Below are positions 26,079 to 27,398 of a stretch of DNA of 64,000 nt, in pieces (within the stretch, counting starts at the first letter, position 1; every line of letters begins with the position of its first letter). The DNA is taken from the NCBI RefSeq assembly GCF_000018545.1, contig NC_012587.1, forward strand, positions 3,687,001-3,751,000, read 5' to 3'. Origin of the DNA: Sinorhizobium fredii NGR234. Its GTDB lineage: Bacteria; Pseudomonadota; Alphaproteobacteria; Rhizobiales; Rhizobiaceae. Under the pieces are notes generated by a model. It was not told the origin of the DNA. It worked only from the letters and a program-made list of their open reading frames with translations, and made no database searches. The position numbers were made by a program, and so were the translations under genes.

Positions 26079-26127
26079 GATGAGCAGGACGGGGAACCGG
26101 CGATCCGGGCGCCTCGAACATGCCCCT

Positions 26128-26305
26128 TGTGTGTCGCGAATCAGCGATTGTGTTTCCGTCACGGAGCGCAGGCGCGCCTGCGCTCCGTGACGGCGGCCGA
26201 GAGCCCGTCGCCCCTCAGGAGCCTAACCCGTGGATGAGCTGGGGCCCGACCGCCTTCTTTTAGAACCCGAACAGTTGCAAGGGGCAAGGCCCCCGAACCG
26301 CAAGG
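26128..26305 (+). ncRNA. Candidate IS110 bridge RNA
   Basis: This is the non-coding left end of the IS110 element. A perfect 38-bp palindrome (26156-26193, core GCAGGCGCGCCTGC) would form a strong 5' hairpin. Next comes GCCCCTCA (26210-26217), which repeats the left target plus core. GGATGAG (26232-26238) is the exact complement of the right target CTCATCC (27272-27278). Further on, ACAGTTGC (26271-26278) repeats the element's right end (27265-27272), and CAAG (26301-26304) complements the left end CTTG (26126-26129). This is the layout of target-binding then donor-binding loops described for IS621-type bridge RNAs. Confidence 0.78.
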
Positions 26306-27259
26306 ATGGGACGAAAGATGGTCGAAGACGGTCTGGTGGTTGGAATCGATGTTGCCAAGGGATGGCTGGACGTTGCCGTGCTGCAAACCGGCGAGAGCTT
26401 TCGCGTCGATAACGACGCGGCCGGCTGGGCGGAGCTTGTTAAGCGGTTGAAGCGCCGCCAGGTACGGGCGGTCGGGCTGGAGCCGAGCGGCGGCTACGAG
26501 CGCGGCCCGAAACAGGCGTTGCAAAAGGCTGGCCTACCGGTCAGGAACGTCAACCCGCACAAGCTGCGTCACTTCGCTCGTGCGCTCGGCAGGCTGGCCA
26601 AGAACGACCGCCTCGATGCGGCGGTCATCGCCCGCTACACCGCCGACATGCCGACGCGGGAGATGCGCGTCGATCCGTTGCGCGAGCAGCTCGCCGAACT
26701 GGTCGGCGCCCGCCGGCAGCTCAGCGACGACAAGGTCAGCCTCAAGAACCAGCTCGATCAGGTGCGCGACCCGGTGGTCCGGCGCATTTTTACCCGCCGC
26801 CTGCGCAGCATCGAGGCCAACATCCTGTTGCTGGAGAAGCGCCTGGCCGAGCTCGTCGCCAGCGATGCCGGGCTGGCCGAAAAGGATCGGCTGATCCAGT
26901 CCTTCAAGGGTGCCGGGCCGGTTCTCAGCCACACGCTGCTGGCGCTCGCCCCGGAGCTCGGCCAGGCATCAAGGCGCGAGATCGCCGCGCTTGTCGGTCT
27001 GGCGCCCTATGACCACGACACCGGCGTCTTCCGCGGCCGGCGCAGCATCTGGGGCGGCCGTGCCGAGGTGCGCGGCGTGCTCTACATGGCGGCCCTGACC
27101 GCCTGCCGCGCGAATCCGCTGCTCAAGGCATTCCACCAGCGCCTGCTTGCTGCCGGTAAGAAGCCGAAGGTCGCACTCATAGCCATCGCCCGCAAGATCC
27201 TCACCATCCTCGGCGCCATGCTGCGCAACGGCCAATCGTGGCAGCCTACGCTTAGCTAA
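26306..27259 (+). CDS. IS110-family transposase/recombinase
   Basis: This is a 317-aa DEDD-type recombinase. The N-terminal RuvC-like domain shows [24 protein letters not shown] and [13 protein letters not shown], which carry the acidic residues. A coiled region (residues about 125-190) follows. The C-terminal Tnp_20 domain has [15 protein letters not shown] and [17 protein letters not shown] with the catalytic serine region. It appears intact. A second possible start is the ATG at 26318, preceded by GGGACGAAAG. Confidence 0.93.
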
Positions 27260-27271
27260 AAAACACAGTTG

Positions 27272-27398
27272 CTCATCCGGCCTGCAGGCCACCTTCTCCC
27301 CGCAGGCGGGGCGAAGGGACTCGCGGCGGACGCTTAAATCCCCTCTCCCCGCATGCGGGGAGAGGGTTAGTCCTCGGGTTAAACCCGGGGAGAGGGGC
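27272..27398. repeat. RIME-like repeat, right part (interrupted by IS110)
   Basis: It begins CTCATCCGGCC directly at the IS110 end and continues with the CTTCTCCCCGC/GCGGGG and CTCTCCCCGC/GCGGGGAGAG palindromes. It ends with an extra CCTCGGG-TTAAA-CCCGGGG hairpin. The missing first bases, GCCCCT, are at 26122-26127. It separates the IS from the dnaJ stop. Confidence 0.8.

Follow-up and report, generated by a model that had tools for sequence, protein, structure and literature searches.

An IS110-group element of Sinorhizobium fredii NGR234 raises two questions: whether its non-coding left end specifies a bridge RNA whose guides match the site in which the element lies, as a first-pass annotation had proposed, and what is to be made of the threonine that its recombinase carries in place of a catalytic serine. 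We analysed a window of 64,000 nt (GCF_000018545.1, NC_012587.1, positions 3,687,001–3,751,000 of the forward strand); the coordinates below are window-based, and the features are collected in Table 1.

Table 1. Features of the IS110-group element and its insertion site, in window coordinates.
Feature	Position	Strand	Evidence
IS110-group element, 1144 bp	26128..27271	+	four 100% identical copies with different flanks
Left target half GCCC + core CT (GCCCCT)	26122..26127	+	same 6 bp flanks all four genomic copies
-10-like hexamer GATTGT	26146..26151	+	junction strings of ten elements, by eye
5' hairpin of predicted bridge RNA (38-bp perfect palindrome)	26156..26193	+	two-sided change in 14/14 counted pairs, ten elements
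Predicted target-binding loop and stem	26192..26254	+	alignment and pair counts; 97.9% of stem cells paired
Left target guide TCGCCCCT, core CT at its end	26208..26215	+	8/8 to two genomic sites, 6/8 to the other two
Right target guide GGATGAG	26232..26238	+	7/7 complementary to CTCATCC at four sites; changes with the flank in relatives
Predicted donor-binding loop, closing stem CCC/GGG, extending past the first ATG	26266..26310	+	alignment and pair counts
Left donor guide ACAGTTGC, equal to right end + first core base	26271..26278	+	invariant in ten aligned left ends
Right donor guide, discontiguous, AAC..CAAG against CTTGTGTG	26296..26304	+	relatives have CACACAAG or CACCGCAAG
IS110 recombinase, 313 aa (ORF open from 26306)	26318..27259	+	Pfam, phmmer, Foldseek
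Codon ACC, Thr235 (313-aa numbering), aligned to IS621 Ser241	27020..27022	+	sequence alignment
Right end ACAGTTG = left donor	27265..27271	+	
Core CT + right target CATCC (CTCATCC)	27272..27278	+	
Palindromic repeat, first bases = right target	27274..27400 (end approximate)	.	inverted arms 27291–27367

The element and its target

The genome carried four copies of the element, identical over 1144 bp and each inserted between GCCCCT and CTCATCC. Outside the element, the sequence common to all copies ended after 6 bp to the left and 7 bp to the right, so the borders could be set independently of the guides. In all four copies, insertion was at a CT core of one and the same target, with the core present at 26126–26127 and again at 27272–27273 and no repeat beyond it. 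The right non-coding end was only 12 bp long, and the predicted RNA lay in the long non-coding left end, where a hairpin, a target loop and a donor loop appear to follow the layout of the IS110 group. Elements of the IS1111 group have the bridge RNA in a long right end and subterminal inverted repeats of 7–17 bp; here the predicted RNA is at the wrong end for that group.

The strings on which the first-pass annotation had built its proposal were all present: GCCCCT (26122–26127), GCCCCTCA (26210–26217), GGATGAG (26232–26238), ACAGTTGC (26271–26278), CAAG (26301–26304) and CTCATCC (27272–27278). The 38-bp perfect palindrome at 26156–26193 is also real. The left guide named there, GCCCCTCA, is shifted relative to TCGCCCCT (26208–26215), and the segment 26128–26305 was rejected as the full RNA, since the donor-loop stem extends to 26310.

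The intact target, GCCCCTCATCC, occurred at 104 sites in the 6.9-Mb genome, compared with one site for a reversed-pattern control. Inspection by eye of the first 30 listed of the 104 sites indicated that a palindromic repeat of the GCCTGCCGGCACCTTCTCCCCGC type begins at 27 of them; another element interrupts two of these 27 repeats, and on the left side the target sites are flanked by unrelated sequence. At the 27 sites, the target is the start of a dispersed repeat, as had been proposed for the natural target. At the window site, the repeat lies between two genes (ORFs ending at 26078 and 27413), and two further intact, unoccupied GCCCCTCATCC targets are present within the window, at 17859 (−) and 54457 (+). 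The repeat at 27274–27400 is probably of the RIME type. Such rhizobial repeats are termed RIMEs in the consulted part of PMC2573895.

Sites of the GCCCCTCATCC type were also found in three congeners (67, 50 and 42 sites). The one-base variant GCCCCTCATTC was rare, with three sites in the window's genome and six in G212, the genome that holds the copy of S. meliloti LMB1. The right flanks of the two 84% relatives (L089, L092) lay in a different palindromic repeat (CATTCCTGTGC..GTCACAGGAAT) that starts with CYCTCATTCCTGTG. Searched with a looser left half, CYCTCATTCCTGTG had 53 sites in G212 and one in the window's genome (controls, 0); therefore, the LMB1 guide fits a repeat that is frequent in its own host and almost missing from the window's genome. 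G212 additionally holds 67 sites of the window element's target.

A predicted bridge RNA in the left end

Single-sequence searches of genome contigs and viral contigs found no relatives, and at an E value of 1e-90 the only hit among 397 genomes of the order was the window's own genome. An alignment-based search of genome contigs gave 33 loci. Ten related elements with readable borders were compared: the window element, Sinorhizobium K101 (identical in C101 and M103, counted once), S. meliloti LMB1, Mesorhizobium sp. AR07 (12 copies), L148, L149, L150, Devosia L151, Brevundimonas L152 and Reyranella L153. From the 33 loci, 18 (the 12 AR07 copies and L148–L153) were used for the guides, and the others entered the Ser/Thr survey only, because their borders had not been worked out.

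RNAalifold recovered the 5' hairpin, the target-loop stem and the donor-loop stem from the ten left ends. After exclusion of eight guide-to-guide base pairs, two-sided changes were counted in 18 of 39 pairs, a number reached by none of 500 shuffles, and slid structures gave 2 to 7. The predicted RNA structure covaries, mostly in the 5' hairpin (14/14 pairs); the donor-loop stems are nearly invariant and hence little informative. The minimum folds of single left ends did not contain the two-loop structure, and the target loop was indistinct in them; the alignment was therefore used for the structure. It is in large part the 5' hairpin that makes the z-scores of the single-sequence folds low (−3.0 to −5.4). 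A search of 25900–27600 against Rfam returned no bridge-RNA family; its five matches were all far below the gathering scores.

The contiguous part of the right donor guide in the window element, CAAG, is just 4 nt long; in AR07, L148, L149 and L150, the right donor guide is CACACAAG, the full complement of CTTGTGTG. A −35-like TTGCTT was formed in 10/10 elements, judged by eye, only when the right and left ends were joined, and loose −10-like hexamers lay 16–17 bp from it (GATTGT, CATAAT, CATTGT, CATTGA, CATAGT, TAGAGT, CAGAGT). The putative start of the RNA was placed by eye from the −10-like hexamer and this junction −35-like sequence.

The recombinase gene probably starts at 26318 rather than 26306, because the database entry and the homologues begin there. 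In the stretch 26303–26318, the likely site of ribosome binding for transposase synthesis coincides in part with the closing stem of the donor loop (GGG, 26308–26310) and with the right donor guide; because of this overlap, RNA folding and transposase translation may be mutually exclusive. In L115 (268–519) and L152 (2212–2420), the 5' part of the left end, with the hairpin and part of the target loop, is duplicated in tandem, which would place a truncated guide RNA upstream of a complete one.

Guides change together with their flanks

Guide positions were fixed by an alignment (A3), and the left comparison covered four bases. Right guides matched their cognate flanks at 48.83/50 bases, compared with a mean of 34.69 for swapped flanks (permutation p = 8e-5); left guides gave 34.92/40 and 27.69 (p = 0.0015), and both guides combined gave p = 1e-5. 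These p values are indicative, as the related elements are not fully independent. The alignment reads the left guide of L152 one column off; it was kept in the permutation test, where it works against covariation.

The right pair was GGATGAG/CTCATCC in the window element, L148, L149, L150 and L152; GAATGAG/CTCATTC in S. meliloti LMB1; AGGTGAG/CTCACCT in 10 of the 12 AR07 copies, the other two having CTCATCT, a G.T wobble; GGTGGAG/CTCCACC in Devosia L151; and TGGGGAG/CTCCCCA in Reyranella L153. On the left, guide and flank shifted jointly from GCCC to GTCC (K101) or ACCC (L149, L150, L151). K101 had one mismatch in the right guide, and L148, the AR07 copy L144 and L152 had one inner left-guide mismatch each. 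The outermost two left-guide bases were often unmatched (5–7 of 8 matched across the 12 AR07 copies), and L153 had no convincing left guide.

In a blind scan that required the two target guides to occur in the correct order, the real sites of the four copies scored 13, 15, 13 and 15 of 15. Of 1500 CT sites taken at random from the window, 24 reached 13 and none reached 15. The score of K101 was reached by 95 of 1500 random sites and that of L153 by 65; for the other elements, with AR07 represented by its first four sites, the number was 0 to 24. A single site is thus only moderately improbable, and the strong evidence is the comparison across elements.

From five multi-copy groups, a distant Ser-type element with four copies (G137) was used, and G177, G129 and G146 were left aside as their borders were not clean. 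In G137, GTCATCCT matched 8/8 and GCCCGAG 7/7, perfect guides for a quite different repeat. In G064, GGATGAG faces CTCATCC by eye; the scored figure for its right guide was not used because the flank was misplaced. Homologues at unrelated flanks with unchanged guides would have contradicted the first-pass proposal; in the ten elements, the guides changed with the flanks. The layout of the left end together with this guide–flank covariation supports an IS110 element with a bridge RNA whose guides match its insertion site.

A second IS110 element of the window's genome (L115, G000:C3:589433-591350, 268–1543) also has threonine (DDTG). Its insertion point is 22 bp deeper in a repeat of the family occupied by the window element (CACCTTCT/CCCCGC), and its guides match nearly, 7/8 on the left and 6/7 on the right. 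A remnant of about 24 bp of this second element's left end (L036, G000:C3 near 1680337) lies at the same position in another copy of the repeat. In the vicinity of a degraded IS110 gene that encodes Trp at the position of the nucleophile, G209:C3 holds a degraded left-end fragment of the window-element subfamily (L075).

A threonine at the catalytic position

The recombinase matched Pfam PF01548 (DEDD RuvC-like) and PF02371 (Tnp) with 78.4 and 56.2 bits, above the curated cut-offs, and the acidic residues D, E, D and D were present in every protein covering them in a set of 127. Its best PDB match was the IS621 recombinase 8wt6, both by sequence (phmmer, E 8.5e-28) and by the structure model (Foldseek, E 4.9e-17), and only the IS621 and ISCro4 recombinases were matched by sequence among solved structures at E 0.001. 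The model had a mean pLDDT of 82 and a pTM of 0.66; it is uncertain in the catalytic loop, where residues 229–247 have pLDDT <50.

The highly conserved serine of the Tnp domain, a hallmark of the IS110 mechanism that does not on its own define the family, is absent: all four copies have threonine. In IS621, Ser241 makes a covalent phosphoserine bond, and mutation of S241 abolishes recombination, according to the consulted sections of Hiraizumi 2024 (PMC11208158); the chain numbering in the IS621 PDB entry runs two ahead of the published numbering. Homology is not in doubt, since close relatives carry either residue. Among the best 120 database proteins, 64 had Thr and 56 Ser, followed by Gly in 120/120, and no other residue was found at the site in the 127 proteins. 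A sequencing slip was ruled out by the four copies, by the named Sinorhizobium and Mesorhizobium genomes and by the 64 of 120 database proteins.

A tree of the 127 proteins (67 Thr, 60 Ser), built by a quick method without the Ser/Thr column, required at least 15 Ser/Thr changes, of which well supported branches make five unavoidable; L152 and L153, both on long branches, come together in this tree. The Ser and Thr codons observed, AGC and ACC, are one step apart. Threonine appears to be uncommon outside the window-element subfamily: 88 distinct ORF pieces from the fetched loci comprised 64 with Ser, seven with Thr (six in the window subfamily), one with Trp (degraded) and 16 that did not cover the site. 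A set of 120 relatives of the second IS110 element comprised 111 with Ser, eight with Thr and one with Ala, where one Thr and the Ala fall in garbled ends. As for other IS110 matches in the window's genome, the next relative is 40% identical and also has Thr, and five others are 27–33% identical.

Mesorhizobium sp. AR07 has 12 copies with 12 intact Thr ORFs, 11 copies being identical over 1146 bp and one having one difference. They lie at 12 sites of their own, with an exact right flank in 10, a wobble in two and an exact inner left flank in 11. Six members, five with Thr and one with Ser, gave dN/dS values of 0.09–0.29 in 15 pairwise comparisons; the Ser member, L149, has a frame that extends past the usual end. 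The LMB1 transposase is split by a frameshift, so this copy is no evidence for activity. Tyr231 was found in 66/67 Thr-types vs 24/60 Ser-types, and Ser or Cys at 263 in 64/67 vs 22/60, an enrichment that may reflect shared ancestry or compensation.

Proposed mechanism and alternatives

Borders, target, guide layout, the covariation of guides with flanks and of the RNA structure, and homology to the IS621 recombinase make it very probable that this is an active or recently active IS110-group element in which a bridge RNA and a recombinase act as follows. Transcription of the left end, probably most efficient in the circular form, would yield a bridge RNA of ~155 nt. Its first loop would pair with GCCC-CT-CATCC, at the start of the dispersed palindromic repeat, and its second loop with the joined ends of the element, ACAGTTG-CT-TGTGTG. 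The recombinase, which carries Thr235 in place of the catalytic serine, would then join target and donor at the CT core. Transcription, RNA binding and catalysis are what we infer from these observations.

It is very improbable that the protein alone reads the target and that the left-end matches are coincidence or inherited hitch-hiking. Twenty-four of 1500 random sites do reach the score of two of the four real sites; however, guides and flanks change jointly in ten relatives and in the G137 element with its other target, and the predicted RNA structure covaries as well. Spread of the identical copies by homologous recombination between repeats would suit an element that lies within a repeat and whose target string occurs 104 times, but the left flanks of the four copies differ past the shared 6 bp, and those of the 12 AR07 copies differ past the short target, which leaves this explanation with scarcely any credit.

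The role of Thr235 as nucleophile is a claim separate from the bridge-RNA explanation, and we hold it with moderate confidence. The Thr copies might instead lack catalytic activity and be mobilised in trans, as passengers, by a Ser-type recombinase present elsewhere in the same cell. The loss of IS621 recombination on mutation of S241, as given in the part of PMC11208158 consulted, speaks for such passengers, as do close Ser-type relatives, for example L149 beside the Thr-type L148 and L150. However, the same-subfamily copies found in the window's genome were the four Thr copies only, and a search of the complete AR07 chromosome, limited to stretches with one of two peptide patterns, found the 12 Thr copies only. 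The proteins are also under purifying selection, and the site holds Ser or Thr in all 127 proteins, where dead copies would be expected to drift. We regard trans-mobilisation as unlikely. It is quite doubtful, too, that the nucleophile is another residue, such as Ser243 of RRS, Tyr231 or Ser/Cys263. The window protein does have a serine eight residues on (RRSIWGG), and Tyr231 and Ser/Cys263 are commoner in Thr-types than in Ser-types; yet position 243 is variable (Ser in 46/120 overall and 30/67 Thr-types, Ile in the Thr-types L148 and L150), Tyr231 and Ser263 are common in Ser-types too, one Thr-type has Phe at 231 and three have Ala or Gly at 263, and Thr235 is at the exact place of the serine, beside the invariant Gly.

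The enzyme is best read as a bridge recombinase in a naturally occurring and functional threonine form, with a phosphothreonine step that we infer. We lean towards the view that a natural bridge-recombinase lineage attacks DNA through threonine, by way of a phosphothreonine–DNA intermediate, and that Ser and Thr have been exchanged repeatedly without loss of transposition.

Significance and comparison with known systems

Bridge RNAs, REP-type targets, guide–flank covariation and natural reprogramming of IS110 elements are already published, the last for IS110/IS1111 elements in the sections consulted of PMC11187229. With its bridge-RNA layout, the window element adds a clear new case to a mechanism already described, and the interest lies in the threonine. 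Bridge recombinases are under development for genome design, and their serine has been described as highly conserved and essential. If the Thr lineage still multiplies, it would show that a bulkier nucleophile, a secondary alcohol, can be accommodated in the active site, and natural variants would be at hand for studying the rate, fidelity and reversal of strand exchange. No recombinase that naturally uses threonine as its nucleophile is known to us. In a search of the open-access literature, no title or abstract opening dealt with a threonine form, and the word "threonine" is absent from the main text of both bridge-RNA papers (PMC11208160, PMC11208158). On the RNA side, a single guide-base change accompanies the switch between two palindromic repeats, each common in its host (GCCCCTCATCC, 104 sites; CYCTCATTCCTGTG, 53 sites in G212).

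ISRm19 of Sinorhizobium meliloti, in the excerpt consulted of Tobes and Pareja 2006 (PMC1525189), is likewise an IS110 element in REP sequences (4/4 copies); it was reported before bridge RNAs were known, and we liken it to the window element by description. Like the predicted RNA of the window element, the guide RNA of the IS110/IS1111 seekRNA elements comes from non-coding DNA, which precedes the gene in IS110 types, and has its two target guides in the same order, according to the consulted sections of PMC11187229; the seekRNA elements have other targets, and those sections mention no Thr form. A close parallel in the sections consulted is the IS621 bridge RNA (Durrant 2024, PMC11208160; Hiraizumi 2024, PMC11208158). 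A left-end RNA with a 5' hairpin followed by target loop and donor loop is known from IS621 and predicted for the window element. Both have a CT core, targets that are repetitive and extragenic, and a right donor guide in separate parts; for the junction promoter of IS621, the window element has a putative counterpart in the −35/−10-like pair read by eye. In contrast to IS621, the window element has a recombinase of about 30% protein identity (Foldseek alignment), Thr for Ser241 and a rhizobial palindromic repeat as target.
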